48,872 bases of DNA from Plantactinospora alkalitolerans. GTDB taxonomy: Bacteria; Actinomycetota; Actinomycetes; Mycobacteriales; Micromonosporaceae. The position numbers and the translations under genes were made by a program. The notes below the pieces were generated by a model. It was not told the origin of the DNA. It searched no databases and saw nothing but the letters and a program-made list of their open reading frames with translations. How positions within the stretch are numbered: the first letter of the stretch is position 1; each line of letters opens with the position of its first letter. Below, one piece after another: positions 7,330 through 33,329 of the stretch. Location of the stretch: positions 1 through 48,872 of the forward strand of contig NZ_JADPUN010000139.1 in assembly GCF_015690345.1 (NCBI RefSeq), in the 5' to 3' direction.

Positions 7330-7354
7330 CGAGCGGGCACCGGGGAACCTCCGG

Positions 7355-8191: not shown

Positions 8192-8226
8192 TGAGACAGT
8201 CCCTTCGTCCGGCCGACACTCCAGGT

Positions 8227-9576: not shown

Positions 9577-9584
9577 ACGCCTCC

Positions 9585-9614: not shown

Positions 9615-9678
9615 TGAACGAACCAGCGGACTCGGCTCGGGTCGGATCGAAACGATGTCGCCCTCAGGACACGTCGCT

Positions 9679-14330: not shown

Positions 14331-15473
14331 TCAGACGGCGGCGCAGCTCACGGTCGGCGCGGCATTACTGCCGGTTTGCGATCCGACGAACCCGAACGTG
14401 GTGCTGCCGCCGGCACCGAGACTGCCGTTGTAGTCGACGTTCCGGGCGGTGACGCCCGATCCGCTGGACGTGATGTTCGCGCCCCAGGTCGAGCTGACCG
14501 TCTGGCCGTTGGCAAAGGTCCAGCTCACCGTCCAGCCGCTGATCGCCGAGCTACCGGCGGCGACGCGTACCTCGGCCTGGAAGCCGCCGGCCCAGGTGCC
14601 GGTGACGGCGTACGTCGCCGAGCAGCTCCGCGCCCCACCGGCAGGAGTCGTCGGCACCGGGGTACGGGTCGGCGTCGCCGTCGGCGTGGCGGTCGGCGTA
14701 CGCGTCGGGGTGGCGGTCGGCGTCGGGTTGCTGCCTCCGCCCGGGAAGTTCACGTCACTGCACCAGTAGTAGTTCTGGTCGGAGTGGCTGGCCTTCCAGA
14801 TCACGTAGACGATGTGTCGTCCGGTACGTCCCGGTGCGCTGACGGCGATCGTGTTGGATACGCCGTTCAGTACCGGGTCGCCGGTCTCCCGGGTGCCCGC
14901 GCCCGGTGCGTACCGGCCGGTCTCCTTGACCAGTTCGAGGTTGCTCCAGCCCAGCCGTTGGGTGAGCGGGTTGAATCCCTGCCGGCTGACGTAGATCAGG
15001 AAGTAGTCCGCGCCGTGCAGGGCCTGGTCGTGGACGGTGACGTTGAAGTTGTTGCTCACGTTCGTGGCCTGCCAGTTGCCGGGATTGTCCAGTGCGGCGT
15101 ACCGGACACCGCCGGTCTGCCCGGCGCTGCACAGTTGTCCGCTCGGAACGTGTCCCTGGTGGTCGCCGGCCACCCCCTCCCGGAACAGGCCGTTCCAGTT
15201 CCACATCGCGTTCGGGTCGGCCTGCCACGCCTGCCAGCACATCGGGTCCTGCGTCGCCATGTTCGGGTTCTGGAAGTCGTTGCCCCACCGCTTCCAGCAT
15301 CCGTAGTTGCGTGATGCCGGATTGATCGTCGAGCCGTGGGCACCCGCGGTGTCCTGCGTGACCACCAGGGCAACGGCGAGCGCGACGGCCCCGGCCACCG
15401 CGATGGCGAGGATCCGCAGGACCGTCGGCGCGCGGTGCCGGGCTGGGTTGGAATGGTGAGCGAGAGATGACAT
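14331..15473 (-). CDS. Secreted AA10 lytic polysaccharide monooxygenase with CBM2
   Basis: The 380-residue protein has a signal peptide ending TAGA before His46, the copper-binding N-terminal histidine of LPMOs (GAHGSTINPASRNYGCW). The second histidine of the brace is in DQALHGADYF (H153). Other AA10 pieces include FQNPNMATQDPMCWQAW, GQLCSAGQTGG, GWSNLELVKETG and IWKASHSDQNYYWCSD. A Thr/Pro linker of TPTATPTRTP repeats (about 260-285) joins a CBM2 module (CSATYAVTGTWAGGFQAEV, ISGWTVSWTFANGQ) ending in SCAAV. The domain is close in pattern to Streptomyces coelicolor LPMO10B, which oxidises cellulose and chitin. The ATG at 15473 directly precedes MSSLAHHSN; upstream in-frame codons lack coding character. 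It likely works with the xylanase in biomass breakdown. Confidence 0.95.
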   Translation of the reverse strand: MSSLAHHSNPARHRAPTVLRILAIAVAGAVALAVALVVTQDTAGAHGSTINPASRNYGCWKRWGNDFQNPNMATQDPMCWQAWQADPNAMWNWNGLFREGVAGDHQGHVPSGQLCSAGQTGGVRYAALDNPGNWQATNVSNNFNVTVHDQALHGADYFLIYVSRQGFNPLTQRLGWSNLELVKETGRYAPGAGTRETGDPVLNGVSNTIAVSAPGRTGRHIVYVIWKASHSDQNYYWCSDVNFPGGGSNPTPTATPTRTPTATPTATPTRTPVPTTPAGGARSCSATYAVTGTWAGGFQAEVRVAAGSSAISGWTVSWTFANGQTVSSTWGANITSSGSGVTARNVDYNGSLGAGGSTTFGFVGSQTGSNAAPTVSCAAV

Positions 15474-15815: not shown

Positions 15816-15833
15816 CAGTACCGCGCTGCCTTG

Positions 15834-16376
15834 TTAACGGGCATAGATCTCCGGGATGGCGTCCTTGATCCGCCGCACGGTCTCAGGGACGTCCAAACCA
15901 GTCGTATCAAGGCCGACGTACCGGTAGTCAGGATCGGCGGCCTGTCGGATGGTCAGATCTTCCGGAATCAGGTCGACCATGTCCCGCCACTCCTGCGTCG
16001 TCAGCTTCGCTCGGGTGACCCGCCGGCCGTCGCGCACGTCCTTGTCGACCACGAGCTCAACCAGGAACACCGCACAGGGCAGGCGTAGCAGCTCGCGGAA
16101 GGCCAGGTAATCGGGGTAGTCGCGCAGAAAGCTGCCGGCGATGACGTTGGCGTAGCCAGCGGTCCAGAAGTTCTCCACCAGGCCGGCGACGTTGCGGCGA
16201 AGCAGGTTGAAAAACTCGTCGTCCATCAGGCACGGGTTGGTCTGCCCGAGGTCCTCAGCGTCGATTCGGGCACCGTTGGGGGTGTGGGGCAGCAGCGCAC
16301 GAACGATGGTTGACTTGCCGGCGCCCTCCTCACCATTGACGAGAACGAGACGATTGTGCCGAACTGTGGGGGGCAT
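15834..16376 (-). CDS. P-loop nucleoside-triphosphate-binding kinase-like protein
   Basis: The 180-residue protein has a Walker A motif LVNGEEGAGKST (about 12-23) and small-kinase features: DAEDLGQTNPC, a helical FFNLLRRNVAGLVENFW, NVIAGSFLRDYPDY, VFLVELVVDKDVRDGRR, then WRDMVDLIPEDLTIRQ and VGLDTTGLDVPETVRRI, the last resembling the C-terminal end of shikimate- or gluconate-type kinases. A substrate cannot be deduced. It is the last gene of the minus-strand operon, nine bases after the P450 stop, which suggests a role in the same pathway, perhaps phosphorylating an intermediate. The ATG at 16376 is followed by the P-loop at normal spacing. The IS5 remnant lies directly downstream. Confidence 0.72.
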   Translation of the reverse strand: MPPTVRHNRLVLVNGEEGAGKSTIVRALLPHTPNGARIDAEDLGQTNPCLMDDEFFNLLRRNVAGLVENFWTAGYANVIAGSFLRDYPDYLAFRELLRLPCAVFLVELVVDKDVRDGRRVTRAKLTTQEWRDMVDLIPEDLTIRQAADPDYRYVGLDTTGLDVPETVRRIKDAIPEIYAR

Positions 16377-16385
16377 CCGGGCACC

Positions 16386-17645
16386 TTAGCTCTGTTCCTC
16401 CGAGCGCGTGCTGAACGAGCACTTGAGCGACTTGGTGCCGCCGATGAAGTTCGACACGAGCCGACTTGGTTCGCCCTCGGCGGTGATGTCGGGGATCCGG
16501 GCCAGCAGTTGACGGAAAATCGCAGTGATCTCCAAGCGGGCCAGGTGAGCACCGAGGCAAAGATGGGGGCCGGGCGCACCGTATCCGATGTGTGGGTTCG
16601 GGGAACGGGTGATACGGAACGCATGCGGATCCTCGAAGATTCGTTCGTCGCGGTTGGCGGACCAGTAGAAGAGGAGGAACTTGTCTCCTTCCCGGAATCG
16701 TTGCCCGTTGAGTTCGGTGTCGCGGGTCGCGGTGCGCCGCATGTACAGAATCGGGGAGGACAGTCGAACGATCTCCTCGACCGCACTTGTCGCGTACGCC
16801 TCGAAGTCTGAACACCAGAGCTGCTTCTCCGCTGGGTGCCGGGTTAGCAGTTCGAGGCCGTAGCTGATCGCATTGCGGGTGGTTTCGTTGCCTGCCACAA
16901 CCAGCAGGATGAAGAAGGAGGCGAGTTCCTGGGAGGTCAGCCGCTCGCCGTCGACGTTGGCGTGCACGAGCCGTGTGATGATGTCGTCGGCCGGTTCGGT
17001 CGCACGCACCTCGGCGAGTCGGTTGACATAGTCGGCCAGTTCGCCGCCGGCGGTCAGCAGTGCGGCGGCGGAGTTGGCCAGGTCCGGCACGTAGTCGGGA
17101 TCAAATGCCCCCACGAGGATATTCGAGCGGCTACAGATGAAGTCGTAGTCCTCCTCGGGGATGCCAAGCAGGTCACATATCACGATGATCGGCATTCTTG
17201 TCGCGACCCGCTCGACGAAGTCGCCGGGCCCGTGCGCGCTGAGTTCGTCGACGATGCGCCGGGCGGTGTTCTCGATTGTGCCCCGCCAGCCGTTGACCGC
17301 TTCACGGCTGAACTGCCGGGCGACGATGCGCCGCAGTCGTGCGTGCTTCGGATCGTCCATGCTGATCATGGAGCCAAAGAACTCGTTCATCTCGGGTGGC
17401 AGGTCGATGATGCTCGTGGCGCCCTTGCCCGAACAGAAGTCACGTGGCCGACGGCTCACCTCCACCACGTCGGCGTGGCGCACGAGCGCGTAGTACCCGG
17501 AACCGGCGGGAAACCCGACGTCGGCCAGTTCGGTCTCGTGGAAGAACGGGGGCCGTTCGAGCCCGCGCAGCTCGGCGAAGGCGGCCTCCCTCGCGGGTAT
17601 CGAGCGGGTCCAGAAGGAAAAATCCGAAAGGTCAACTGTCGGCAT
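16386..17645 (-). CDS. Cytochrome P450, CYP124/125/142-like
   Basis: 419 residues with every P450 landmark: I-helix VVAGNETTRN (251-256 core), ExxR at E291-R294 (EEIVR), and haem loop HIGYGAPGPHLCLGAHLAR with Cys363. The longer spacing in the haem loop (GxGxxGxHxC), the N-terminal FCSGKGATSI and MISMDDPKHARLRRIV are typical of actinobacterial CYP124/CYP125/CYP142 relatives, which oxidise terminal methyl groups of branched lipids and sterols. This fits a lipid substrate made by the neighbouring FAAL and reductase genes, an inference. The ATG at 17645 follows AGAGGAGG and overlaps the end of the kinase-like gene by 14 bases. No ferredoxin or reductase gene is nearby in the operon, so electrons must come from elsewhere. 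Confidence 0.9.
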   Translation of the reverse strand: MPTVDLSDFSFWTRSIPAREAAFAELRGLERPPFFHETELADVGFPAGSGYYALVRHADVVEVSRRPRDFCSGKGATSIIDLPPEMNEFFGSMISMDDPKHARLRRIVARQFSREAVNGWRGTIENTARRIVDELSAHGPGDFVERVATRMPIIVICDLLGIPEEDYDFICSRSNILVGAFDPDYVPDLANSAAALLTAGGELADYVNRLAEVRATEPADDIITRLVHANVDGERLTSQELASFFILLVVAGNETTRNAISYGLELLTRHPAEKQLWCSDFEAYATSAVEEIVRLSSPILYMRRTATRDTELNGQRFREGDKFLLFYWSANRDERIFEDPHAFRITRSPNPHIGYGAPGPHLCLGAHLARLEITAIFRQLLARIPDITAEGEPSRLVSNFIGGTKSLKCSFSTRSEEQS

Positions 17646-18312
17646 CGACAATCCTCCTCTTGGTTGCGGGTAGGCCGAGGCGGGCGCAAATCTTCTCGGC
17701 AAGATCGTTCGTCGTGCCGGCGCTGCCGTCGAACACCTCCCAGTCGTGACGTTGTGACATGCGCAGCAACTGCTTCCGGACCAACGACTGGAAGGAGGTG
17801 AAAGCCGCCACGTGGCCGTTCGGGTGGTTACGGTGCTCGCCAAGCTCACTGGGGTCGAACTCGGGCTTCCGACGTGCGGCGAGTGACGCGGGAACGTCTA
17901 GCAGGAAGACTCTGTCCGGAACGCGGACTCCGGTGAAGTAGCTTTCGGTATCGTTCAGTGAGGCCCCGTTGGAAGTAAGTTTGGCGATGAACTTGTAGAA
18001 CCAGCCGTCGGCGACGACGACGTCACCGGCGCGCAGGGTCGGACCGACGACGCAGTGGTCGACCAGCGCGTAGTAGCTGGCCCGGATCAGAGCCCAATGG
18101 GTGTCGCCGAGCGTCCGGTAGGGACCTTGCAACGACTGCATCTGCAGTTCCCGAATGCTCCTGAGGTAGTTCGCGAGGTAGGGGTCGGCGTTGTGGACCC
18201 CGCCGTGCCTGACGAAGCGGACAGACACGCCACCGGTTTGCAGCAGGTCGATCAGTCGTTCCGCAGTCGTCGTCTTGCCGGCGCCGTCGATGCCCTCAAG
18301 CGCGATGAACAT
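17632..18312 (-). CDS. Thymidylate-kinase-like P-loop protein with altered DRY motif
   Basis: The 226-residue protein begins MFIALEGIDGAGKTTTAERL, the classic P-loop of dTMP kinases (7-14), and has their length. The usual DRY/DRH sequence that grips the phosphoacceptor is DGW here (VVVADGWFYKF, 102-104), and the lid reads RRKPEFDPSELGEHRN rather than an RxxxRxxDR pattern. It therefore may phosphorylate something other than dTMP. Family proteins transfer ATP gamma-phosphate to a (deoxy)nucleoside monophosphate. Its place between a nucleotidyltransferase gene and the P450 gene, overlapping both by 14-17 bases, argues for a dedicated role in this pathway rather than housekeeping DNA precursor synthesis. 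The start at 18312 is set by the P-loop at residue 7. Confidence 0.8.
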   Translation of the reverse strand: MFIALEGIDGAGKTTTAERLIDLLQTGGVSVRFVRHGGVHNADPYLANYLRSIRELQMQSLQGPYRTLGDTHWALIRASYYALVDHCVVGPTLRAGDVVVADGWFYKFIAKLTSNGASLNDTESYFTGVRVPDRVFLLDVPASLAARRKPEFDPSELGEHRNHPNGHVAAFTSFQSLVRKQLLRMSQRHDWEVFDGSAGTTNDLAEKICARLGLPATKRRIVDADS

Positions 18313-20005
18313 CGGTCGCTCCGGAGAGGTGGGGCTGCACGCCGCCGGTCGTGAACACGTCCCGGGCCTCCTCGATGGGGAAGTCGGAGTCGAGATAGGC
18401 ACCGACGCGGATCCAGTCGTGGCCGATCTGGATCGTGCGGTCCCACGCGTCAGCGGACGTGAACGACGCCGGAAACAGGCTCGCGCCGGTACCCTCTCGA
18501 ACTCGGCGGATGAACTCGTCGAGCGAGTTGGCAACCGCCGCGACGGATGCCGGCGAGTCCGCCGACGTTATGCTGTCGTCGATGGCGTCGGCGGCCTTGG
18601 CCAGCTCGTCCGGGATCACCCGGAGCTGGCCCAGCCTCGGGATCAGCCCACTGTCCGGTGGCAGTGGGCTTACCCCGTAGGCGCTGAGCAGAGCGCGGCA
18701 GGCGCTGATGAGCATCCGCCGCCCTGCCGTTTCGGCCACCCGCCACTGCTGGTTGGCCTGCGCCCCGGTGAGATCTTCACGGGCGTTGTCCACCATGATG
18801 TTGGACCAGACGTGCGCCATCCCGGCGGCAGCGAACCGTTGCGCCGGAAGCGGTAGGAGCGCGACGATCGGAGGATCATCGTCCGGACGTACCGCGCCGT
18901 GTATTCCCAGAATCGGTAGGGACGTGCTCGGTATCGGTGTGGAGGGTTGCTCGGCCCCGTACGGTTGGGCGATGGTGATCGCGGCGCCATTACGCCACCG
19001 CAGCCGCAGCAGGCCGATCCGGTAGAACTCGGCGACGATTGCCCCGACCACGGCTGGATCAGATCCGCCGCACCTGAGCAGGTCGTTGAGGGGCATTGGC
19101 GCGACGACTGAGCGCCATACCGCGGCGGCCTGCGGGCTGAGCACGAAGACGTCCCGCCGGTCGCGAATGACGTGCAGTTGGGTGCCGATCGCCCAGGTGG
19201 TGACCGCGGGAGTCCCGATCACATCGATCATGCCCGAATCGGCGGTGCAGCCGGCGACGCCGAAGTCATCGACCAGCTCCGCGGCGGCCATGACCCTGGC
19301 GGACTGCTGTGTCGTCCCGGGCCGCATCGTGCCGTCGTCGGTCCCCTTCCGGGTCAACGACCAGTACCGCTCGGCAAACTCGGCGGAATCCTCGCCGATC
19401 CGGTCGAACTGCTGCGAGAGCCACTTCGATTCGACGTAGGTTTCGCCGTGGGCCGCAACCCACGCCTTGGCCGCCTGGGTCAACGCGATCCGGGTCCAGG
19501 CGGCCGCTTCGACGGTCTGCCGCATCGCGTCGAGAGCAACCACCTGACGCATCGCCTGGCGTGCGTGATGGGCGAACCATGGTGCGACGATTCCAGGAAG
19601 CTGGTCGGCGGGCAGCGCGCGATGGGCACGGTCGACGACGTCGTGCCCACGCAACGGGAACGAGCGGCTCAGGCGTTGGCATCGGTTAAGAAGATCCACC
19701 GGTATGCGGGGAAGCCCGGCCCCGCCTCTGCTGGCCAACCGCGTCACCAACTCGGCCTGCTCGCGTGCCTGGCGTAGTGACCGGGTCCGCACCTCGACCC
19801 GCCGTCCATCGACGAACAGGATCGACGGCATCGTCGGGTACTCGTGTTCGTCGTCGTACAGGAGCAGCAGGTCGATGTCAGAGGAGGCATTGCCGAACCC
19901 TTCGGCGATGGAACCCTCGAGCACGACCCCGGCTCCGGAGGGCACATCCACCACGGCGAGGGTCTGGTCCAGCAGCCATTGCAGGTACTGTTCGTCGAGA
20001 ATCAC
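18296..20005 (-). CDS. Nucleotidyltransferase-domain protein with PqqD-like segment, 569 residues
   Basis: Residues 30-50 carry the polymerase-beta-type signature EGSIAEGFGNASSDIDLLLLY: Gly31-Ser32 and Asp43/Asp45, the metal-binding acids of minimal nucleotidyltransferases. Residues about 60-240 are helical. Residues about 275-337 (QLHVIRDRRDVFVLSPQAAAVWRSV, then DPAVVGAIVAEFYRIGLLRLRW) resemble the winged-helix PqqD or RiPP recognition-element type fold. The C-terminal 220 residues are again helical, ending with DVFTTGGVQPHLSGATDVHRA. Such enzymes attach a nucleotide to a small molecule or protein; the substrate is unknown. Start and stop overlap both neighbours by a few bases, showing tight translational coupling. 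The PqqD likeness is from pattern only and needs structure prediction. Confidence 0.72.
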   Translation of the reverse strand: MILDEQYLQWLLDQTLAVVDVPSGAGVVLEGSIAEGFGNASSDIDLLLLYDDEHEYPTMPSILFVDGRRVEVRTRSLRQAREQAELVTRLASRGGAGLPRIPVDLLNRCQRLSRSFPLRGHDVVDRAHRALPADQLPGIVAPWFAHHARQAMRQVVALDAMRQTVEAAAWTRIALTQAAKAWVAAHGETYVESKWLSQQFDRIGEDSAEFAERYWSLTRKGTDDGTMRPGTTQQSARVMAAAELVDDFGVAGCTADSGMIDVIGTPAVTTWAIGTQLHVIRDRRDVFVLSPQAAAVWRSVVAPMPLNDLLRCGGSDPAVVGAIVAEFYRIGLLRLRWRNGAAITIAQPYGAEQPSTPIPSTSLPILGIHGAVRPDDDPPIVALLPLPAQRFAAAGMAHVWSNIMVDNAREDLTGAQANQQWRVAETAGRRMLISACRALLSAYGVSPLPPDSGLIPRLGQLRVIPDELAKAADAIDDSITSADSPASVAAVANSLDEFIRRVREGTGASLFPASFTSADAWDRTIQIGHDWIRVGAYLDSDFPIEEARDVFTTGGVQPHLSGATDVHRA

Positions 20006-21702
20006 GTCGACTCCAATCTCATTGCCTCAGCTGGTTCTGGCGTAGAGCTCCGGTAGACGACGAGGTCGGCGTAGGCGCCTGAGTGCAGTTGATGCCACAT
20101 GTACCGCCTTCGGATCTTTCCGCTCGACGTCCGCTTGAGCAGACCGCTCGGCCCGGCGATTATCGTGATGGCCACGTCCTCGCCCAGCTCGCGGCGAAGC
20201 GCGTCCGCCGCCTGTGGCACCCACTCGCCGCCGCGCGTCTCGACCAGCAGCGCGATTCCGTTGCCGCGGTCGTCCGAGGTACTGACCGCCGCGCACCGTC
20301 CGCGTGGCAGCCCGGCAGCTACGGTGAGTTGTGCCTCGAGCCCTTCCACGTAGACGGCGCGGCCACGGACTTTCAGGCTTTCACCCATCCGGCCGAGGAC
20401 GAACAGCTCACCGTCAAAGAGAAGGCCCGCGTCACCGGTTCTGACTGCACCGTCGACGAAACGTGTCGACGTCTCGTCCCGGTCGTCGGCGTAGCCGCTG
20501 GCGATCGAGACGCCTCCGACCGCGACCTCGCCCAGGTATCCGTCGGGCAACTCCTTGCCGTCCTCGTCGACGATGGTGACCGAGGCGCCGGCCGCCGCAC
20601 GACCGGAGCTGACCAGCCAGCCGGCCGCCGCGTCGCTGGTGTCGTCTCCCAGCCGCGCGGTCCCGACGACGGTGACCGGCCGGCCGAACTCGAGGGAGTC
20701 CCACCCGGGACGCACGATGAGCGGTTCCCGCCCGTCGTGGGCTCCGGCGACGAAGAGCGTCGCTTCGGCGAGCCCGTAGGCCGGCGCAAAGGCACGCCGG
20801 TCGAACCCACGGTCCGCCAGGAGCCGCGCGAACGTCTCCAGGGCTGCGGCGTCGAGCAGTTCCGCGCCGGTGACCGCGCTCTTCACCCCGGACAGATCGA
20901 GCCCGTCGAGTGTCAGCCCGGCCAGGCGCTTGGCCGCGTACGCATAGCCGAACGGGGGAGCAGAGGTTCTCACCGCCCTGCCCGCGTTCAGTGCCTCGAG
21001 CCAGCGGCGCGGATCGCGAACGAACTGGTCGGGCCGCATCAGCCAGAGATCGGTCTGTGCGGCGACCGTGCTGAGCATGCATCCGATCAGGCCCATGTCG
21101 TGATAGAAGGGGAGCCACGACGCGGTGCCCTCGTGGTCGTCCCAGCCCAACCACGTGCGAATGGCATGCACGTTGGCGTCGAGATTCCGCCACGACACCC
21201 GAATGCCGCGCGGACTGCCCGTCGAGCCCGAGGTGAATTGCAGCAGCGCGAATTCGCCAGGTCGTTGAACGGCCACATCACCGTGTGGCGTGGGAGCCCA
21301 CGGCACGCCCGCCATGCCCGCTTCGACCATCGCCGCCGCTGTCACGTCGTGCAGCAGTTCGGGTGCCAACACCGCACTCGGGCGCGCCTGGCGCAGGATG
21401 GCAGCGACGTGGGCCACGTATTCGCGGCGCGGCTGGACCGCGGGCGGTGGGATCGGGCAGACGACCGCTCCGGCGGCCCAGACTCCGAAGAAGGTCGCCA
21501 GGCTCGCATGGTCTGTCGGCAGGATCAGGCAGACCACGTCGTCGGCCACAATGCCCCGCCGCACCAACTGGTTTGCCACACCCCGGGCATTCGCGGCGAT
21601 CCGCTCGTAGCCGGAGAACTTCCAGTCACCGGCGTCACCGGCGAGGTGAACGCCGTGGTCAGTACTGGGCATGTCGATCCATCGGGTGAGATCAGACTTC
21701 AT
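20002..21702 (-). CDS. FAAL-type fatty acyl-AMP ligase
   Basis: This 566-residue acyl-adenylating enzyme activates a fatty acid with ATP and can pass the acyl group to an ACP. Motifs: LLQFTSGSTGSPRG (about 154-166), SWLPFYHDMGLIGCML, the FAAL-style PPFGYAYAAKR, AYGLAEATLFVAG, SGYADD, RTGDAGLLFDGELFVLGRMGESLKVRGRAVY and LKRTSSGKIRR with the catalytic Lys near the end. The combination of YHDMGLIG and PPFGYxYAAKR is more FAAL than acyl-CoA ligase. The ATG at 21702 is chosen because the longer open frame runs antisense-like through the preceding gene. Its stop overlaps the start of the nucleotidyltransferase gene. The ACP in the same operon is the probable acyl acceptor. Confidence 0.87.
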   Translation of the reverse strand: MKSDLTRWIDMPSTDHGVHLAGDAGDWKFSGYERIAANARGVANQLVRRGIVADDVVCLILPTDHASLATFFGVWAAGAVVCPIPPPAVQPRREYVAHVAAILRQARPSAVLAPELLHDVTAAAMVEAGMAGVPWAPTPHGDVAVQRPGEFALLQFTSGSTGSPRGIRVSWRNLDANVHAIRTWLGWDDHEGTASWLPFYHDMGLIGCMLSTVAAQTDLWLMRPDQFVRDPRRWLEALNAGRAVRTSAPPFGYAYAAKRLAGLTLDGLDLSGVKSAVTGAELLDAAALETFARLLADRGFDRRAFAPAYGLAEATLFVAGAHDGREPLIVRPGWDSLEFGRPVTVVGTARLGDDTSDAAAGWLVSSGRAAAGASVTIVDEDGKELPDGYLGEVAVGGVSIASGYADDRDETSTRFVDGAVRTGDAGLLFDGELFVLGRMGESLKVRGRAVYVEGLEAQLTVAAGLPRGRCAAVSTSDDRGNGIALLVETRGGEWVPQAADALRRELGEDVAITIIAGPSGLLKRTSSGKIRRRYMWHQLHSGAYADLVVYRSSTPEPAEAMRLEST

Positions 21703-21734
21703 CGCGTTCCAATCGGTACGCCGGGAAGACGGTG

Positions 21735-24464
21735 TCAAGTGGATGGATGATCGGTGGATGCCACCTCGTCGGGCAGGATCTGGATCTGCCCGGTGCCACC
21801 GTCCATGTAGAGGTGCATCCCGGTCTCGACGTGGTGGGTCAACTGCTTGATCTGCACGACGGTGGGTACGCCGAGTTCGCGGGCCACGATGGCGACGTGC
21901 GTGAGCGGGCTGCCCCGCTCGATGAGCAACCCAGCCGCGGAGGGCAACGCCGCGACCCAGCCCGGGTCGGTGCGATAGGTGACGAGAATGTCCCCGTTGA
22001 CGTCCCCGGGAGCGTCCACCACCAGCGCCCGCGCGCGGGCCGTGCCGGGACTCGCCGCGATGCCGCTCAGCGTCTGTGGAGCGGCCGAGTCCCGAGTGCC
22101 CTTGCCAAGGCCGCGCCAACCCGCGTCGTCGAGATTTGCCAGCCAGTGGACCGCGCCCCGCGTGGTGAACCTGGATGGCGCTGTCATCTCGCGGTTCGCC
22201 GTCTCCTGGGCCCGGCGAGCGGTGACCAGGGATTTCAGGTCGGGGTCGATGACTGTGGCTTCGAAGCAGCCGCGGATCTCGTCGATGCTGAGGTAATAGA
22301 CGTCCGTGGGGCTGTTGAGCGCACCGCTTCGGGCCAGGTCCGTACCGATGGCGCGCATCATCTTCTTCGCGGTGCCGAAGGCGCGGGTCCGGCAGAACCG
22401 CAGGTTCTCCCGGGCTGCGAGCGAGCGGCGCACCTTGCCGCGGATCCGTTCGTACACCCATCGGCGCGGCCATGACAGGTTCTGGTGCAGGTATTCGTCG
22501 GCGTCGTGGCCGCCGTCGCGGTGCACCGCGTTTTCCGCCAGCGCGTTGCGTAGGAGCACGAAGAACGCCGCCGGGTCTTCGCGCAGATCGGGCACCTCGA
22601 GCTTGAGCTCGTCGAGGCTGCGGTACCCGTAGGTGCTGATGTAGGCGTCGACCTCGTCGAGGAACTGTCGGTACCCCTTCGCCGCCAGCGCCTCGTAGAC
22701 CTCGGTCGGCTCGGTGTCCCGGACTACGGACTCCATCGCGGGGTCTTCGAGGACCTGCCGCGCCAACTGCACGATGCGGTGTGCCGGCTCAATCGACTCG
22801 ATGGCGGTCCCTGGGCTGCTGACTGCCCAGCCGAACCAGGCCGGTGCGTCCGGCAGCCAACGCTTGGTCAGCACGTTCAGTACGCCGAACGAGATGCCGA
22901 TGACCGAGTCGAGGATCGCGACCCTGCCCCATTTGGCAACCAGGGTCCGCTCGAGGGTCTGGTAGCGCTGGAAGACCTGATCGGCCGGGAGCAGGTGGTA
23001 CTCGATACCGTCGAACGCCGGCTGCCTGCGGTTGAAGTAGCGCAGGAAGTTCTTCACCGTCCGCTCCACACGCAGGAACTGCCAGAAATAGGCGATCCGG
23101 GTGCGTATCGTCACCCGCACGGCCTGTCCGCGTGAGGAGCAGGTGTAAGGGTGCTGCTGCTCGGCCAGTTCGGCGTCCAGGCTCTCCTCGACGCCGAGTG
23201 AGATTTCCAGACTCTGCTTTCCGATCCCGTACAGCGGTGACAGCCGGACCAGCCGGTACCAGTTCAGCAGGTTGTAGTACACGTGCCCGTGGAAGTATCC
23301 CAGCAGGTGCGGAAGCCAACTCTGCATCTGTTGCTGCTGCTCCGCCGGGACCTTCAGGGTACGCGCGTACTCGGCGTACACCTCCTGGTAGACGCGGCGC
23401 GCAAAGCTGTAGGTCAGCGGTGAGGTGATATCCCGGAAGCTCTCGATGATGTTGGAGTTGTCCCAGATGCGCAGCTCGGAGTCAGGCCGCCGCGGGTCGC
23501 CGAGCTCACCCGCCGGTTCGTCCGGCAGGGTGGTGATCGGCCGCGACTGGAGCACCCACAACGTGCCGGCGTTGTCGATGGCCCACTCCACGTCCTGCGG
23601 CGCGCGGCAGAGGTGTTCTACCCGGCCAGCGAGGTCGCCGAGTGCGCTGATTTCCGCATCGGACAGCGCGACCTCCAGATGACCCTGGGCGGTCTCTGTC
23701 ACCCGGCAGCCGGCGGCCGCCGGGTCAGCGTCGAACCGCTCCTGCTTGTCGCCGACCACCGTGTCCAGCACGGTGTTCGTCGCGTCGAGCACGACCGTGT
23801 CGGCGTCGACCGCGCCGGACACCAGTCCTTCGCCGAGGCCGAAGACGGCGCTGATGACACGTTCGCCACGTGTCCCGGTCATCGGATTGGCGGTGAACAG
23901 CACCCCGCTCTTGTCCGCCACCACCATGGTCTGCAGGATCACCGCCACCCTGGCGCTGGTGGGCGGAAGGCCGTGCCCGAGCCGGTAGTGCAGCGAGCGG
24001 GCCGAGAAGGCCGACGCCCAGCATTCCCGTACGGCGTCGATGACCTGGGCCAGGCTGGTGACGTTGAGAACGGTGGTGAACTGTCCGGCGAACGAATGCT
24101 TCGGCCCGTCCTCGTCGGCGCCGGACGAGCGGACCGCGACCGCGCCCTCGCCCACCTCCCGGTACGCGTCCCGGATGGCGAGGCGGGTTGCGGACGTCAG
24201 CTCGCTGGCGGCGATCCATCCGCGGATCGTGTCGGCGACTGCCTCGGCCTCGCCCGTGTCGCCGGCGCCGACGCGCTGTAGTGCTGTTGTGATCCGGACA
24301 TCCAGACCGGTCTCCCGCAGATGCTCGTCAAAGACGTCGAGGCCGATGACCGCCCACGGTGGTACGGCGAAGCCGGCCTCTGCGAGCAGACGCAGCGACT
24401 GGCCCTTTCCACCGGCCAGAGCAGCCATTTCGGGAACGTCGCTGCGTAGGGTCAACACACTCAT
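21735..24464 (-). CDS. PEP-synthase/rifampicin-phosphotransferase-like dikinase, 909 residues
   Basis: The protein has the three-part layout of PEP-utilising dikinases. The N-terminal ATP-binding part contains GGKGQSLRLLAEAGFAVPP, VAVRSSGADEDGPKHSFAGQF, TANPMTGTRGERVISAVFGLGEGLV and QDVEWAIDNAGTLWVLQSRPIT. A middle part with WDNSNIIESFRDITSPLTYSF is like the substrate domain of rifampicin phosphotransferases. The C-terminal swivelling domain has SGIAASPGTARARALVV and LIERGSPLTHVAIVARELG, where His856 is the phosphorylated residue. Such enzymes split ATP to AMP and Pi and pass the beta-phosphate to pyruvate, water or an alcohol. The middle part differs from true PEP synthase, so phosphorylation of an alcohol, perhaps the reduced acyl chain, is inferred. 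It lies 45 bases after the UbiA-like gene and 32 before the FAAL gene. Confidence 0.82.
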   Translation of the reverse strand: MSVLTLRSDVPEMAALAGGKGQSLRLLAEAGFAVPPWAVIGLDVFDEHLRETGLDVRITTALQRVGAGDTGEAEAVADTIRGWIAASELTSATRLAIRDAYREVGEGAVAVRSSGADEDGPKHSFAGQFTTVLNVTSLAQVIDAVRECWASAFSARSLHYRLGHGLPPTSARVAVILQTMVVADKSGVLFTANPMTGTRGERVISAVFGLGEGLVSGAVDADTVVLDATNTVLDTVVGDKQERFDADPAAAGCRVTETAQGHLEVALSDAEISALGDLAGRVEHLCRAPQDVEWAIDNAGTLWVLQSRPITTLPDEPAGELGDPRRPDSELRIWDNSNIIESFRDITSPLTYSFARRVYQEVYAEYARTLKVPAEQQQQMQSWLPHLLGYFHGHVYYNLLNWYRLVRLSPLYGIGKQSLEISLGVEESLDAELAEQQHPYTCSSRGQAVRVTIRTRIAYFWQFLRVERTVKNFLRYFNRRQPAFDGIEYHLLPADQVFQRYQTLERTLVAKWGRVAILDSVIGISFGVLNVLTKRWLPDAPAWFGWAVSSPGTAIESIEPAHRIVQLARQVLEDPAMESVVRDTEPTEVYEALAAKGYRQFLDEVDAYISTYGYRSLDELKLEVPDLREDPAAFFVLLRNALAENAVHRDGGHDADEYLHQNLSWPRRWVYERIRGKVRRSLAARENLRFCRTRAFGTAKKMMRAIGTDLARSGALNSPTDVYYLSIDEIRGCFEATVIDPDLKSLVTARRAQETANREMTAPSRFTTRGAVHWLANLDDAGWRGLGKGTRDSAAPQTLSGIAASPGTARARALVVDAPGDVNGDILVTYRTDPGWVAALPSAAGLLIERGSPLTHVAIVARELGVPTVVQIKQLTHHVETGMHLYMDGGTGQIQILPDEVASTDHPST

Positions 24465-24509
24465 GCACGACTCGCTTTCTGGGATGGAAGCTGACGGGCG
24501 GGCCGGCGG

Positions 24510-25367
24510 TCATGCACCCGCGGTCGCGAGCAGGCCGACCTGCAGCACGAACGCAAAGCTCAGGCCAGCCCAGGCTGGGCGAGGTCGACTTCCTGGGCGA
24601 CTGCCCGACCGTGCCGTGCCGATCCACGCCGCGATCCACGCCCCGAACCCCAGCGGCACCGCGGCGGCGTATCCGACAACGATCGGCGGTAGCGAATGGC
24701 TGGCGTAGATCAGCGCGACGCAGCATTCCGCGACGGCGAGCAGAACTGCCAGCGCCACGAGCCGGCCCCGTGGCCCCAGGCCGTAGGGGCGGTACCCGGC
24801 ATCGTCGAGCTTGCGCGAGAACTTCCAGAATTCGTACGCGGTCCAGTACAGCCCGGTGACACCGAACACCAGGACCGGGGACGCAGCCGAGTCCGCGTAC
24901 GTGCGCCAGCCGGCGTAGGCGTAGACCATGATCAGCAGCGGGGCACCCTCGTACACGATCGGCAACAGGATCCGGTGACCCGGCAGTCTCGGATGGTTGA
25001 CAACCCGGGGGGCGAGCAGCATCGCCGCGGTGGCGGCGAGCGCCGTCAGGAGGGCCGGCCAATGCCGCATCGTGAGTAGGACCGTGAGACCGATGGTGGC
25101 GACCAGTCCGGCCTGGAGGTGGCTCCTTCTCCCGGCGGCCGGCGAACGATCGGTCGCAGCGTCGCGGTGGAAGTCGTCGATGTCGTCGACGAGTCGCAAC
25201 TGGACGAACAACAGGACGAATGTGGCAGTTGTCGCTGCCACCGCCAGTAGGTCAAGCTCGGGGCTGGGCACCGCCCGTAGGTAGAGCGACTGCAGGCTGG
25301 CGAACGTCAGAACGGTGGCAAGGCCGACGGTGTGTGGCGGAAACCGACGCAACAGGTAGCGGATCAT
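24510..25367 (-). CDS. UbiA-like integral membrane protein (prenyltransferase family resemblance)
   Basis: The 285-residue protein has about eight or nine hydrophobic helices and, after helix 2, RLVDDIDDFHRDAATDRS with Asp61, 62, 64, 65 and 69. This resembles the first NDxxDxxxD motif of UbiA prenyltransferases, which bind a diphosphate through Mg. A second, weaker acidic motif is seen in FSRKLDDAGYRPYG in the second half. UbiA enzymes move a prenyl or other isoprenoid-type group onto an acceptor in the membrane. No isoprenyl diphosphate synthase or quinone gene is nearby, so the transferred group is unknown and may be lipid-derived. The ATG at 25367 shares an ATGA overlap with the reductase stop. 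Family resemblance good; activity inferred. Confidence 0.75.
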   Translation of the reverse strand: MIRYLLRRFPPHTVGLATVLTFASLQSLYLRAVPSPELDLLAVAATTATFVLLFVQLRLVDDIDDFHRDAATDRSPAAGRRSHLQAGLVATIGLTVLLTMRHWPALLTALAATAAMLLAPRVVNHPRLPGHRILLPIVYEGAPLLIMVYAYAGWRTYADSAASPVLVFGVTGLYWTAYEFWKFSRKLDDAGYRPYGLGPRGRLVALAVLLAVAECCVALIYASHSLPPIVVGYAAAVPLGFGAWIAAWIGTARSGSRPGSRPRPAWAGLSFAFVLQVGLLATAGA

Positions 25368-26485
25368 CGGGCCTCGCGTGCGTCGAGCAGGCCCAGAACG
25401 GAGTCGATGCTCTGTTGCGGTGCGCCCAGGTAACCGGTGCGCAAGCCGTGGTTGAGCAGTCTGCGCAGGAAGGGCAGGCCACGGACGGTTGGTCTGCGTG
25501 GCATGAACACCTTGGCTGCGGTGGCGTCGAAGGTTACGGAGCGGCGGAAGTAGCTCTCGTAAAGGGCGACGACCCGCTCGTAGTAGGCACGTTCGCCGAG
25601 TGGCATCCGCGCGGTCGAGAAGCTGGCCGGCGAGACGAAACGGGGCACGTGAAAGGAAGGATACTCGGCCAGGACGTTGCTGAAGTCCAGCAAGTTGTGC
25701 TCTTGCGCCCCCACCGCATGAAAAGTGCGCCCGACGGCGTCCTCGAAACGGACGACTGCCTGGCTGATCAACTCGGCCACATAGTCGACCGGTACCAGGT
25801 CCAACGTGGCGTCGTAGTTTCCGGCCACGGAACGCACGCGCCCTTCGGTAAACGCCTTGAGCACCACATAGATGTTCTTGAAGTCACGGATGACGCCATT
25901 GCGCTCGGTGCCGACGACGATACTCGGTCGTACCACGACGACCGGGAGGCCATTGCCGGCGGCGCGGTGGACGGACTGCTCGGCGACAAATTTGCTGCGC
26001 TCGTACGCTGTGCCGAAGCGTTGACCGGCGTCCAGTTCGTCCTCACCCACCACGCCGATGCGCTCGCCGCAAACATACGCAGTGCTTACGTGGACGAGCG
26101 GAATCGGTGAGCTGGTCGTCCTGCTCGCAAACTCCAGGACCTGTTCGGTGCCGGCGATGTTGATCCGTTCATATGTGTCCGCGGGCAGACCGAACGTGGT
26201 GACCGCGGCGACGTGCACCACCCGGTCCACGGTGCGGAGAGCGTCGTACTGGTGATCGGAGAGGCCGAGCCGCGGTTTGGTGATGTCGCCGTTGACGCGC
26301 ACGACCGAACCACGGGGTGCTGCTTCCCGCCAGTCGAGTGTCTTCAGCCGCCGCCCGTTGTTCCGGACCACCTCGGAGTTCGCGTGCATCAGTGCGAACA
26401 CGGTGTGGCCCGCCCCGCTCAACCGTGCCACGACCTCGGATCCGACGAGGCCCGACGCACCAGTTACGAGTACCGTGAGCGTCAT
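25364..26485 (-). CDS. NAD(P)-dependent acyl (thioester) reductase, extended SDR
   Basis: The 373-residue protein begins MTLTVLVTGASGLVGSEVV, the GxxGxxG cofactor motif at 9-15. It continues with the SDR catalytic Ser134 (VHVSTAYVCGE) and YxxxK at Tyr161-Lys165 (YERSKFVAEQ), giving a classic extended SDR fold similar to Lys2-type thioester reductases and fatty acyl reductases. The C-terminus (about 300-373: RAYYERVVALYESYFRRSVTFDATAAKVF, LLNHGLRTGYLG) resembles the small domain of actinobacterial fatty acyl reductases. It should reduce an acyl-thioester, likely on the neighbouring ACP, to aldehyde or alcohol. The ATG at 26485 follows GGAGGTACCTG and overlaps the ACP stop (TGATG). Cofactor preference not visible. 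Confidence 0.83.
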   Translation of the reverse strand: MTLTVLVTGASGLVGSEVVARLSGAGHTVFALMHANSEVVRNNGRRLKTLDWREAAPRGSVVRVNGDITKPRLGLSDHQYDALRTVDRVVHVAAVTTFGLPADTYERINIAGTEQVLEFASRTTSSPIPLVHVSTAYVCGERIGVVGEDELDAGQRFGTAYERSKFVAEQSVHRAAGNGLPVVVVRPSIVVGTERNGVIRDFKNIYVVLKAFTEGRVRSVAGNYDATLDLVPVDYVAELISQAVVRFEDAVGRTFHAVGAQEHNLLDFSNVLAEYPSFHVPRFVSPASFSTARMPLGERAYYERVVALYESYFRRSVTFDATAAKVFMPRRPTVRGLPFLRRLLNHGLRTGYLGAPQQSIDSVLGLLDAREAR

Positions 26486-26757
26486 CAGGTACCTCCCTCG
26501 CCAGTCTGCGCGGCGACAAGGGCCACCAGGTCGCGCACGGTCGTGACGGCCAGCGCATGGTCGAGATTGATCGGCGGCAGGGCGAACCGCTGCTCGACCA
26601 CCACGGCAAGCTCGATCAGGCGCAGTGAGTCGAACCCGAGATCGAAGACCAGTCGGGCGTCGTCGTAAACCGATGCTCCGCCGGTCGGCGCCATCAGGGC
26701 GACGATGTCGTGTATCGCCTCCCGCAATGGTCCTGATGAGAGTGGCACGGTTGTCAT
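26485..26757 (-). CDS. Acyl carrier protein, 90 residues
   Basis: A small carrier protein whose phosphopantetheine site is Ser44 in DLGFDSLRLIEL, the DSL motif. Helical flanks are normal: REAIHDIVALM before it, and VVEQRFALPPINLD and TTVRDLVALVAAQTG after it. It starts at ATG 26757, behind GGGAGAG; a longer frame runs upstream to 26973 but crosses the promoter region. As the first gene of the operon it should carry the chain activated by the FAAL and reduced by the SDR. No carrier-specific phosphopantetheinyl transferase is in the window, so a genomic one must act. Confidence 0.9.
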   Translation of the reverse strand: MTTVPLSSGPLREAIHDIVALMAPTGGASVYDDARLVFDLGFDSLRLIELAVVVEQRFALPPINLDHALAVTTVRDLVALVAAQTGEGGT

Positions 26758-26776
26758 CTGCGGATGCTCTCCCTTG

Positions 26777-26788
26777 CGTTGGCAAGCC
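26777..26788 (-). repeat. Single inverted copy of the SARP-type repeat near the ACP start
   Basis: CGTTGGCAAGCC at 26777-26788 is the exact reverse complement of GGCTTGCCAACG at 27039-27050 near the SARP gene. It lies only about 20 bases before the ACP ATG, so in the leader or core promoter of the operon. A second copy 11 bases away is not seen. It may help repress or tune expression; function inferred. Confidence 0.4.
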
Positions 26789-27038
26789 GAATGTGCTGCC
26801 ACAGCAGCTACGTCTTGGTACGCTTTGGCGCCGCCAGTTCCATTCAGGGCTGACTTGACAATCTGCGTCCCGCCACCACCGGTTCCACTCGCATGCCGCG
26901 CTGGCCTACATCGGCGCAGGAAATAGCCAACATGGCGGCGTGGCGAGTCGGGCTGACAGGACCGACATTGCATGCCTCTTCATCGTCTCTCCCTACCCGT
27001 ACCGTTCTCCGCTAGTGTGGTGGACGGATCATGGAAGT

Positions 27039-27058
27039 GGCTTGCCAACGGCTTGCCA
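27039..27058 (+). repeat. Tandem GGCTTGCCA repeats, likely SARP operator
   Basis: Two perfect copies of GGCTTGCCA begin at 27039 and 27050, exactly 11 bases apart, one helical turn. SARP/AfsR regulators bind direct heptamer-type repeats at this spacing close to the -10. The repeats lie 34-53 bases upstream of the SARP GTG (27092), and read on the minus strand they face the operon. They could serve autoregulation or activation of the operon; the exact promoter is not resolved. Confidence 0.5.
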
Positions 27059-27091
27059 CGCCGTAGCCCCCAGTGACACGTGGAGGTCTCT

Positions 27092-29890
27092 GTGGAGTTC
27101 CGCCTGCTGGGTCAGGTCGAGGCTGAACACAACGGTGTACCTGTCGCGCTCGGTCGCCGTGGCGAGCGGCGCCTGTTGGGTGTCCTGCTGTTGCTGGCCG
27201 GGCAGGCGGTGACCGTCGATCGACTGGCCTCGCTGTTGTGGGACGACGCTCCGCCAGCCAGTGCCCGGACCAGTCTCCAGGCGCACGTCTCTCGGCTGCG
27301 CCGGCGACTGGACCCGGACGGTAATGGCACATCGGGTGTGCGGCTGATCAGCCAGCACGGCGGCTACGGGGTCGAGGTGGATCCGGCCCACGTGGACGCG
27401 CACCGGTTTCGGCTGGCGGTTGACACGGCGCGTGGGATCGACGACCTGATGGCACGCTCATCTGCCCTACGTAGTGCCATCGGCCTGTGGAAGGGTCCGC
27501 TGCTGGCAGGTGTGGCGTCCGACCGGCTCCGCGAACGGGTCGGCGCCGACCTCATCGACCTGCGACTGAGCGCAATGGAGCTCGCGGTCGAAACCGATCT
27601 CTCGCTCGGACGCCACCAGAAGGTCGTTGGTGAGCTTGGGGTACTGGCCGCCGAACATCCGACCCGCGAGCGGTTCACCGCGCAGCTGATTACGGCCCTG
27701 TTCCGATGCGGACGCCAGCACGAGGCGCTGGACGCGTACGAGCGGCTGCGGGTACGGCTCGCCAACGAACTCGGCGTGGACCCGGATCCAGATCTGCAGC
27801 GCCTGCGGGCCGCACTGCTCCGTCATGACACCGGCCTACGCCTGACGGCCGGGCAATCAGCTACGCCGACACCGGCGCAACTGCCGGCCGACATACTGGG
27901 CTTTGTGGGGCGCCGCGATGCGCTCGATCAACTGGACGCACTGCTCAGCACCAGCGTCCAGGAGCCGACGGCAGTCGTCATCTGCGCGATGTCGGGTACG
28001 GCGGGGGTAGGCAAGACCGCGCTCGCCGTGCATTGGGCCCACCGCGTGGCCGACAGGTTCCCCGGCGGCGAACTCTACGTAAACCTGCATGGTTTCGATG
28101 CCACCAGGTCAGCCACCAGCCCGACCGAGGCACTCCGGGGGTTTCTCGATGCCCTGGGCGTACCGCCGCAGCGAATTCCGGGCTCCCTTGATGGACAGGT
28201 CTGCCTGTACCGCAGCCTACTGGCCGGACAAAAGATACTCGTCGTGCTGGACAACGCACGAGACGTCGATCAAGTACGGCCCCTGTTGCCCAGCTCAGCG
28301 GGCTGCCTGGCGGTGGTCACCAGCCGCAACGAGCTTAGCGGCCTGGTCGCCGCCCAGGGAGCCAACCTGCTCACCCTGGACCCACTCAGCCAACCGGAGG
28401 CACACCACCTGCTGATGCGCCGCCTCGGCGCCGGCCGGCTCGCGCGCGAGCCGGCCGCGGTCGACAAGATCGTCGCTCGGTGCGCCGGGCTGCCACTCGC
28501 TCTTGCCATAGTGGCCGCCCGCGCCGCAACCCGTCCGGGCTTCCCGCTGGAACTGCTGGCGACCGAGCTTCATGACGCGGACAGTGTGCTCGATCCGCTC
28601 GCCGTCGGATCCGCCGACACCGACGTGCGAACCGTGTTCTCCTGGTCATACAGAGTTCTCAGCCCGGAGGCCGCCCGGCTGTTCCGACTGCTCGGCCTGC
28701 ATCCCGGTCCCGATGTCTCGTTGCACGCCGCCGCCAGCCTCGCCGGAATCACCCGGCAGCAGGTACGCCCGCTGCTGGCGGAACTGAGCCAGGCGCATCT
28801 GGTCACGGAGCAGAACTTCGGCCGGTACACCCTGCACGACCTGTTGCGCGCATATGCGATCGAGCTGACGCGGTCCAACGATGACGCCGCGGAACGGCGC
28901 GCCGCGACGGGCCGCCAGCTCGACCACTATCTGCACACGGCCTGTGCCGCAACGCGGCTGATGGATCCACACCGGGTCGCGATCGCGCTCTCGCCACCGC
29001 GCGCCGGGGTGATTCTCGAGGATCTCTCCGGTGCCGACGCGGCACTCGCCTGGCTCGTCTGCGAACGCCGGGTGCTACTCGCCGCCATCCACCAGGCGGG
29101 CGCCGGCTTTGAGGCGCACGTATGGCAGTTGGCCTGGGCGGTCGCCAGCTTTCTGCACCGGCAGGGCCACGGCGAGGATCTCCTGGCGGTCGAGCGGCGC
29201 GCGCTCGATGCCGCGATGCGGCTGACCGACCCGATCGGAGTGGCGCACAGCCACAACGGTCTTGGTCTGGCGTACTTCGTGCTGGACCAGGAAGACAAGG
29301 CACAGTTGCATCTCGAGGAGGCATTGGTCGCGTACGGCCGGATCGGTGACCACGGTGGCCAGGCCTGTGCACACCTCAACCTCGGGGCGGTGCTTGACCG
29401 GCATGGCCAGCACGGAGCGGCTCTGCGGCACGCTGAGCAGGCGTCGACCCTGTTCCGGATGGCGGGCCAGCGGCGCGGCGAAGCCAGGGCGCTCAGCGGG
29501 ATCGCCTGGTCCCGGGCCAAGCTCGGTGACCATCGGAGTGCGCTCGAGGATTGTCGCCTTGCGCTTACCCTGTACGCGCAGCTCCCGGACCGGCATGGCG
29601 AAGCAGCGGCCTGGGACACCCTCGGTTCCATCCATCGACAGCTCGGTGCGTACGACGAGGCGGTGACCTGCTATCAACGCGCCGTGCGGCTGTCCCGGGA
29701 GGCCGGTGAGCGCCAGCGTGAGGCGGCCGGGCTCACCAAACTGGGCGACACACACCAGGCGGCCGGTGACCCGGCAGCGGCGGGTATTGCCTGGCGGCAG
29801 TCCTTGACCCTGCTGGCCGAACTCAATCATCCCGAGGCGGATCAGGTCCGTACCAAGCTGCTCGCGACCGTCAACCCCGTGACCTCCTAA
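27092..29890 (+). CDS. Large AfsR-type SARP regulator with NB-ARC and TPR domains
   Basis: 932 residues from GTG 27092, which has GGAGGT four bases upstream; the GTG at 27080 is alternative. The N-terminus FRLLGQVEAEHNGVPVALG and SLQAHVSRLRRRL is the OmpR-like DNA-binding domain of SARPs (to about 90). The bacterial transcriptional activation domain follows (to about 240). An NB-ARC-type ATPase starts at about 280 with Walker A GTAGVGKTAL (about 302-310), ILVVLDNARD and CAGLPLALAI. C-terminal TPR repeats (about 690-930: HLNLGAVLDRHGQHGAALRHAEQA, AAWDTLGSIHRQLGAYDEAVTCY) complete an AfsR-like plan. Such proteins are pathway activators responding to unknown signals or phosphorylation. It is divergent from the nine-gene operon, so it is probably its specific activator. 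The stop codon abuts a truncated sigma-factor gene. Confidence 0.92.
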   Translation: MEFRLLGQVEAEHNGVPVALGRRGERRLLGVLLLLAGQAVTVDRLASLLWDDAPPASARTSLQAHVSRLRRRLDPDGNGTSGVRLISQHGGYGVEVDPAHVDAHRFRLAVDTARGIDDLMARSSALRSAIGLWKGPLLAGVASDRLRERVGADLIDLRLSAMELAVETDLSLGRHQKVVGELGVLAAEHPTRERFTAQLITALFRCGRQHEALDAYERLRVRLANELGVDPDPDLQRLRAALLRHDTGLRLTAGQSATPTPAQLPADILGFVGRRDALDQLDALLSTSVQEPTAVVICAMSGTAGVGKTALAVHWAHRVADRFPGGELYVNLHGFDATRSATSPTEALRGFLDALGVPPQRIPGSLDGQVCLYRSLLAGQKILVVLDNARDVDQVRPLLPSSAGCLAVVTSRNELSGLVAAQGANLLTLDPLSQPEAHHLLMRRLGAGRLAREPAAVDKIVARCAGLPLALAIVAARAATRPGFPLELLATELHDADSVLDPLAVGSADTDVRTVFSWSYRVLSPEAARLFRLLGLHPGPDVSLHAAASLAGITRQQVRPLLAELSQAHLVTEQNFGRYTLHDLLRAYAIELTRSNDDAAERRAATGRQLDHYLHTACAATRLMDPHRVAIALSPPRAGVILEDLSGADAALAWLVCERRVLLAAIHQAGAGFEAHVWQLAWAVASFLHRQGHGEDLLAVERRALDAAMRLTDPIGVAHSHNGLGLAYFVLDQEDKAQLHLEEALVAYGRIGDHGGQACAHLNLGAVLDRHGQHGAALRHAEQASTLFRMAGQRRGEARALSGIAWSRAKLGDHRSALEDCRLALTLYAQLPDRHGEAAAWDTLGSIHRQLGAYDEAVTCYQRAVRLSREAGERQREAAGLTKLGDTHQAAGDPAAAGIAWRQSLTLLAELNHPEADQVRTKLLATVNPVTS

Positions 29891-31079: not shown

Positions 31080-31279
31080 CTCGGAACTCCGTCTTCATGG
31101 CGAGCTGACCAGCGCGAACCATACCAGCGTGCGACCGGTGCGACGCCGTCGCTCAGCGGGCGGCCGTCTCGACCGGCCCGGGATCGGGATCTAAGCCGCC
31201 TAATCCACTCGGCGGTACGCTCGTCGTCGGAAGGAACATTTCGGCGCTCCGATCAACACTCGAGATGGGAGATTGCGCC

Positions 31280-32455: not shown

Positions 32456-32460
32456 GAGAC

Positions 32461-32727: not shown

Positions 32728-32730
32728 GGT
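32725..32730 (+). promoter_or_regulatory. Leaderless-type -10 (TAGGGT) for the phosphoesterase gene
   Basis: TAGGGT ends seven bases before GTG 32738, and the box overlaps the ferredoxin stop codon (TAG at 32725-32727). As with the 6826 gene this suggests a transcript starting at the start codon; however the GGGGGA between could also act as a ribosome site, so a leadered start is not excluded. Confidence 0.4.
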
Positions 32731-32737
32731 GGGGGAC

Positions 32738-33235: not shown

Positions 33236-33329
33236 CTTCGCCGGCCCGGGCGTGGATTCCGGGGCCGCCGGTGGGGTACCGGCCGTTCGGGCTGGAGCGT
33301 TTGGATCAGAGTGCTGCCAGACTGTGGGG

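Follow-up and report, generated by a model that had tools for sequence, protein, structure and literature searches.

What might an operon of the salinipostin type make when AfsA is not among its genes? The question is raised by a minus-strand operon of nine genes, running from 26757 down to 15834 in a 48,872-nucleotide stretch of Plantactinospora alkalitolerans DNA (contig NZ_JADPUN010000139.1 of assembly GCF_015690345.1; the whole stretch is hereafter the window). The salinipostins, like the cyclipostins, are cyclic enol phosphates of a rare kind, and we know of no settled assignment of the enzymes that place the alkyl group on the phosphate. Two papers describe cyclipostins and cyclophostin as inhibitors of serine hydrolases (PMC11095149, PMC6681047). 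Sequence comparison supports the kinship of our operon to the salinipostin family well, and the operon probably represents a rare branch, without AfsA, of the spt-type (salinipostin/cyclipostin) family, in which a fatty alcohol would be joined through phosphate to an acceptor that is not a butyrolactone. Whether the product belongs to a new class of lipid phosphate, the salinipostin lipid-phosphate machinery having been kept while the butyrolactone module (AfsA and NDK) was exchanged for another acceptor module, we consider evenly balanced.

From its first gene, the operon encodes an acyl carrier protein (ACP; 26485..26757, 90 aa), a thioester/acyl reductase with a NAD_binding_4 domain (TR; 25364..26485, 373 aa), a putative UbiA-superfamily membrane transferase of a divergent, AfsA-less type (24510..25367, 285 aa), a phosphohistidine dikinase composed of PPDK_N, a middle part and PEP-utilizers (DIK; 21735..24464, 909 aa), a fatty acyl-AMP ligase (FAAL; 20002..21702, 566 aa), a large nucleotidyltransferase with an ANT/KNTase-like N-terminal part and a long C-terminal part (NTase; 18296..20005, 569 aa), a thymidylate-kinase-like P-loop kinase (TMK; 17632..18312, 226 aa), a cytochrome P450 (16386..17645, 419 aa) and, as the last gene, a P-loop kinase-like protein (PLK; 15834..16376, 180 aa). 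An AfsR-type SARP regulator (27080..29890, plus strand, 936 aa) is divergent from it. Neighboring genes overlap (ACP/TR, -1 base; TR/UbiA, -4; FAAL/NTase, -4; NTase/TMK, -17; TMK/P450, -14) or sit close together (DIK/FAAL, +32; P450/PLK, +9), the largest gap being the 45 bases between UbiA and DIK. The start of FAAL is the ATG at 21702; a longer frame opens with CGG and would reduce the DIK/FAAL gap to 11. Coordinates, gaps and Pfam domains thus agree with a preliminary description of this DNA, which had reported nine close or overlapping minus-strand genes and a divergent AfsR-type SARP. As it had also stated, no polyketide synthase or nonribosomal peptide synthetase occurs among the Pfam domains of the ten proteins, and the gene content bears out its view of an operon built around a fatty acyl-activating step, a reductive release, phosphate-handling enzymes and a transferase of the UbiA fold.

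Relatives of the operon were collected with a reductase-alignment scan of a genome collection covering 84,980 species, which yielded 137 relatives; the best 80 were retained, and counts out of 80 given below refer to these best matches. Since the gene caller misassigned strands in GC-rich loci, gene presence was scored by tblastn. AfsA, NDK and spt-type UbiA occurred together in 76 loci, DIK in 78, NTase in 79, FAAL in 52 and ACP in 53. In four Salinispora loci (L071-L074), the gene order is DIK-FAAL-NTase-ACP-TR-NDK-UbiA-LUX-AfsA, as followed gene by gene in L072. Within the genome of S. oceanensis, AfsA is matched only in this nine-gene operon, twice in a single gene. On the strength of the gene order, the sole AfsA site, the characterized status of spt and the cluster reportedly described by Kudo et al. 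2020, we take the Salinispora operon to be the salinipostin cluster spt, the make-up of which and the roles of its genes are given here as reportedly described in that paper and by Creamer et al. 2021. One paper places spt among nine experimentally characterized Salinispora clusters and among the two most widely distributed of these (PMC8609351). The preliminary description had known of no characterized cluster with the present gene set, a statement that has to be revised, considering that six of the nine window genes have counterparts in the Salinispora operon: DIK, FAAL, NTase, ACP, TR and a UbiA-fold protein are common to both, both are tightly packed, and both dikinases pass the NCBIfam model NF004881. 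The window carries the DIK/FAAL/NTase/ACP/TR core of an spt-type cluster together with its UbiA-fold protein. However, AfsA, an NDK-like gene and a luciferase-like gene are found in spt and not in the window operon, the first two as judged by Pfam, whereas a divergent UbiA, a TMK-like kinase, a P450, an extra P-loop protein and a divergent SARP are found in the window and not in spt. Literature searches, covering neither Creamer et al. 2021 nor Kudo et al. 2020, listed no paper describing the window gene set.

Three of the 80 loci were devoid of AfsA, NDK and spt-type UbiA alike, namely those of Lentzea fradiae (L034), Actinomadura terrae (L031/L123) and A. macrotermitis (L045/L122), while a contig end truncates L035 shortly after TR. 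All three loci encode DIK, NTase, ACP, TR and the divergent, window-type UbiA, and neither NDK nor AfsA was matched in longer stretches of them. In Lentzea, the genes form a single run, ACP-TR-UbiA-DIK-NTase-TMK, the TMK of which is 47% identical to that of the window and takes the same place after NTase; A. terrae has NTase-UbiA-DIK plus a divergent FAAL-ACP-TR; and A. macrotermitis has NTase-UbiA-DIK, followed by a P450 and FAAL adjoining ACP-TR, the P450 beside FAAL being 57% identical to that of the window. FAAL is thus present in both Actinomadura loci. In contrast to the window, gene order varies among these loci, an acyl-CoA dehydrogenase stands beside TR or TMK, and PLK has no match. 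To our knowledge, no product has been assigned to any of them. From these comparisons, the window appears to belong to a rare branch without AfsA and NDK-like genes, a TMK-like kinase and a P450 taking their place.

Absence of AfsA was also assessed in whole genomes. PF03756 (AfsA) was matched in five of the eight genomes searched and had no match in those of the window, Lentzea and A. macrotermitis. By this measure, the draft genome of P. alkalitolerans has no AfsA-family synthase of the kind expected for a gamma-butyrolactone autoregulator.

For the trees, 28 loci were chosen from the 85 to 87 that carry each gene and were combined with the window; the DIK tree included five further dikinases. 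The window and the three AfsA-less loci formed one group in the trees of TR (support 90/89), NTase (78/65), DIK (98, quick method, outgroup-rooted) and UbiA (100, quick method). Pairwise identities of TR were 56-60% to the AfsA-less loci vs. 50-52% to Salinispora. In the DIK tree, AfsA-bearing operons stand on both sides of the AfsA-less group, which fits a loss of AfsA, with the basal fork open and long branches meeting.

The UbiA-like protein by itself gave no Pfam or NCBIfam match, while spt-type UbiA relatives in L021 and L026 match PF01040. It does contain the Asp-rich motif DDxxDxxxD as DDIDDFHRD, of which D61, D65 and D69 are invariant across 16 aligned sequences, and it matched the profile of spt-type UbiA with an hhalign probability of 97.2%. 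In Foldseek, its AF2 model (pLDDT 81) reached a TM of 0.65-0.67 to 4tq4_C and 6m31_A (best E 1.0e-3), and 0.62-0.69 with a probability of 1.00 across the 4tq and 6m31/7bpu UbiA homologues. Since the motif, the profile match and the predicted fold agree, we assign the protein to the UbiA superfamily, with a predicted all-helical UbiA fold and a long branch of its own. Compared with DGGGP synthase (6m31) and the membrane phosphoribosyltransferase 8j8k, the fold (TM 0.56-0.69) and the Asp-rich motif are alike, but identity is 12-15% and the partner in the window system would be an alkyl rather than a prenyl phosphate. By analogy, the match to 8j8k suggests that a UbiA fold can take a diphosphate-activated, non-prenyl partner. 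Surveys for window-type UbiA returned only the genome that holds the window, i.e., 1/7 genomes of the genus, 1/200 of the family and, by profile, 1/396 of the phylum, the family and phylum figures covering part of the first-look candidates (the phylum-wide profile search scored, e.g., 6/110 in the own genome), so that absence there is soft. A single-sequence search of 396 genomes gave, apart from the window itself, seven weak and partial matches with E between 0.0015 and 0.008, which were taken as chance, and plasmids contained no tblastn match to UbiA or NTase.

DIK has PPDK_N and the mobile PEP-utilizers phosphohistidine domain (Pfam) with an LTH motif; no pyruvate barrel domain was detected by Pfam at E up to 0.1. 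It was the only one of DIK, TR, FAAL and TMK to reach the cut-off of its best NCBIfam model, scoring 1020.6 bits against NF004881 (cut-off 883), to which the Salinispora homologue in L072 scored 1393 bits. This model labels both dikinases "phosphoenolpyruvate synthase". The phosphoenolpyruvate (PEP)/pyruvate-binding barrel is the defining domain of PEP synthase and was not detected at the C-terminus of DIK, and this identity was therefore rejected; the name is perhaps misleading for such dikinases in public annotation. At E <= 1e-60, DIK was found in 11 of 298 genomes of the order. Five of the ten occurrences outside the window lie in clusters of DIK-FAAL-NTase-ACP-TR with NDK, UbiA and AfsA, the AfsA of L021 starting right at the border of the analyzed sequence. 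Another two, L023 and L024, are solitary, and the remaining three, L028-L030, show ~30% identity and have AfsA-like genes in their vicinity. In L028, positions 2319-11717 encode DIK (30%), UbiA, a TMK-like P-loop protein, DUF6182, AfsA, KASIII and ACP, with FAAL and TR unmatched; the TMK-like protein is 29% identical to window TMK over 112 aa and has no Thymidylate_kin match. This cluster is perhaps a third branch of AfsA/dikinase/UbiA chemistry.

NTase matched NTP_transf_2 at 23.0 bits (cut-off 21) and carries a GS..DID motif. In Foldseek, ANT(4') and kanamycin NTase came out nearest to its AF2 model (pLDDT 84.9), with E from 7e-5 to 1e-3 over ~260 of 569 columns; a profile search of solved structures gave nothing useful. 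In L022 and L025-L027, from four genomes, FAAL and NTase are encoded in one ORF of 1107-1169 aa, which suggests that the two act in a coupled manner.

The lipid-loading genes are recognizable by their domains. ACP matched PP-binding (6.9e-08), DSLR at 43-46 supplies its Ser, and it is 37-56% identical to the ACPs of other loci, where one is detected. TR matched NAD_binding_4 (5.3e-47) with a YxxxK motif and scored 142.7 bits against the thioester reductase model TIGR01746 (cut-off 213.35). FAAL matched AMP-binding (4.3e-43), with 299.9 bits against its top model, NF006624 (fatty acyl-AMP ligase; cut-off 600). Neither the Cys loop of the P450 nor the lysine of FAAL was matched by regular expressions in the window translations; by eye, the Cys loop reads GYGAPGPHLCLG and the lysine motif SSGKIRR. 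The P450 matched p450 at 6.8e-22. Among the 80 loci, a FAAL match was missing in 28, of which 27 are Streptomyces, and an ACP match in 27. In the Streptomyces loci L036, L032 and L053, NTase directly follows DIK, so that TR there would need its acyl group from another carrier.

Two Walker A motifs were found in the operon, one of them in PLK. TMK matched Thymidylate_kin at 3.8e-08, and its identification as dTMP kinase was rejected, since it scored 41.2 bits against TIGR00041 (cut-off 83.25). Relatives of TMK occurred in 16 of 298 genomes, the window's own included; no firm substrate clue came from six places with E < 1e-15 and L028 (G641). In L143, L144 and L145, TMK-like kinases ~33% identical to window TMK lie amid genes that look like queuosine/deazapurine genes, the names being read from sequences. 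PLK is a P-loop protein with AAA matches under the curated Pfam cut-offs and a match to NF038208 at E 3.5e-5 (23.6 bits, cut-off 170); it could be an acceptor kinase or serve self-protection. A defense system was considered and rejected; a PADLOC scan of four proteins gave only weak P-loop matches, to two of them.

Taken as a pathway, FAAL and ACP would load a fatty acid, which TR would release as an aldehyde or alcohol. DIK, with its mobile phosphohistidine domain and no detected pyruvate domain, may then phosphorylate the lipid alcohol or the acceptor, and the TMK-like kinase, in place of the NDK-like protein of spt, may add a further activating phosphate, which NTase may cap with a nucleotidyl group. 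At the membrane, the UbiA-fold enzyme would employ its Asp-rich diphosphate site to link lipid and acceptor via phosphate; the acceptor would be other than an AfsA-made butenolide, the P450 would oxidize the product, and SARP would turn the operon on. An AfsA-less branch that keeps DIK, NTase and a UbiA-type enzyme sets the lipid-phosphate chemistry apart from that of the lactone, so that the function of the lipid-phosphate enzymes becomes testable alone. Such clusters would be overlooked by AfsA-seeded searches, and, if the reading is true, one conserved core could serve several headgroups.

Several observations weigh against this reading. The dikinase model is not specific, considering that the stand-alone dikinase L023 also passes NF004881 (946.9 bits), and we know of no established UbiA-type step with a saturated alkyl partner. 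A distant TMK-like gene in the AfsA-bearing L028 means that TMK alone does not argue for the absence of a butyrolactone. Of the 80 loci, only that of Lentzea has TMK in common with the window, a P450 at the 57% level is found only in A. macrotermitis, and PLK is found in none at 40 bits; moreover, FAAL was not found over ~43 kb in Lentzea, save a 24% match in a 1200-aa gene. Support for the NTase group is modest, and long branches that meet were flagged in the NTase, DIK and UbiA trees. As for AfsA, the P. alkalitolerans genome is a draft of 441 contigs (96.26% complete), 14 control genomes gave no PF03756 match, leaving the five matched genomes as positive control, and A. terrae carries AfsA on a contig (G830 C14) other than that of its cluster (C11), so that AfsA could act there in trans.

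These last points bear on the possibility that the product is a salinipostin-like butyrolactone phosphotriester after all, AfsA acting in trans or having been missed in a draft genome. The six core genes in common with spt would also fit; however, NDK and spt-type UbiA are gone along with AfsA in all three AfsA-less loci, the window UbiA is strongly divergent, and the AfsA search that was positive in 5/8 genomes was negative in those of the window, Lentzea and A. macrotermitis, and we regard this explanation as quite unlikely. A lipid-nucleotide, in which a nucleoside phosphate activated by TMK would be the acceptor coupled to the alkyl by the UbiA-fold enzyme, is unlikely as well. A TMK-like protein and a nucleotidyltransferase within one operon are consistent with it, as are the deazapurine-looking surroundings of the TMK relatives in L143-L145 and the adenylosuccinate synthetase-like and transketolase-like genes beside NTase in A. 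macrotermitis; yet Pfam recognized no nucleoside-making gene in the operon, those TMK relatives are only ~33% identical, and NTase is present also in AfsA-type operons, where the acceptor should be a butenolide.

It is very unlikely that DIK activates a fatty aldehyde by phosphorylation for condensation with a partner, like the ligases RedH and PigC, to give a product without phosphate. DIK resembles RedH/PigC and rifampin phosphotransferase in having PPDK_N and a terminal phosphohistidine domain, a layout that fits, and the RedH and PigC models are among its next best matches. However, DIK lies far under their curated cut-offs (359.8 and 318.8 bits against 1350 and 1300), the cluster context is different, both window and Salinispora DIK pass NF004881, and the operon holds other phosphate-handling genes. 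That the P450, PLK and SARP are chance neighbors of a core lipid operon appears most improbable: PLK was found in 0/80 loci and SARP in 1/80, as a patchwork would predict, but the genes overlap or sit close together, TMK has the same place in Lentzea, and the 57% P450 lies beside FAAL in A. macrotermitis. The AfsA-less spt-type reading is thus the one we prefer.

The SARP has BTAD (3e-36), Trans_reg_C, NB-ARC and TPR domains (Pfam). Direct repeats at 11-base spacing in promoters are SARP-binding sites, and a candidate, GGCTTGCCA, with a 9-base unit and 11 bases start-to-start, lies at 27039..27058, 21 bases ahead of the SARP start and 281 ahead of ACP. A comparable repeat arose in 0.16% of 20,000 first-order Markov sequences fitted to the SARP-ACP region; a second such 11-base-spaced repeat occurs elsewhere in the window, at 44504.

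In A. macrotermitis, L122 1-7972, beside NTase-UbiA-DIK, holds adenylosuccinate synthetase-like, Gfo/Idh, DUF6917, HAD, split transketolase-like and PLP enzyme genes, which are possible headgroup genes. In the window, positions 31265-34733 (plus strand), past SARP, encode a second P450, 33.5% identical to that of the operon, an adjoining single-cluster ferredoxin (32461-32727), a calcineurin-type phosphoesterase and a pyridine nucleotide-disulphide oxidoreductase; these genes could be a source of redox partners for the operon P450. Downstream of the operon, at 14331-15473 (minus strand), lies a lytic polysaccharide monooxygenase (LPMO) with a cellulose-binding module, which looks unrelated to it.

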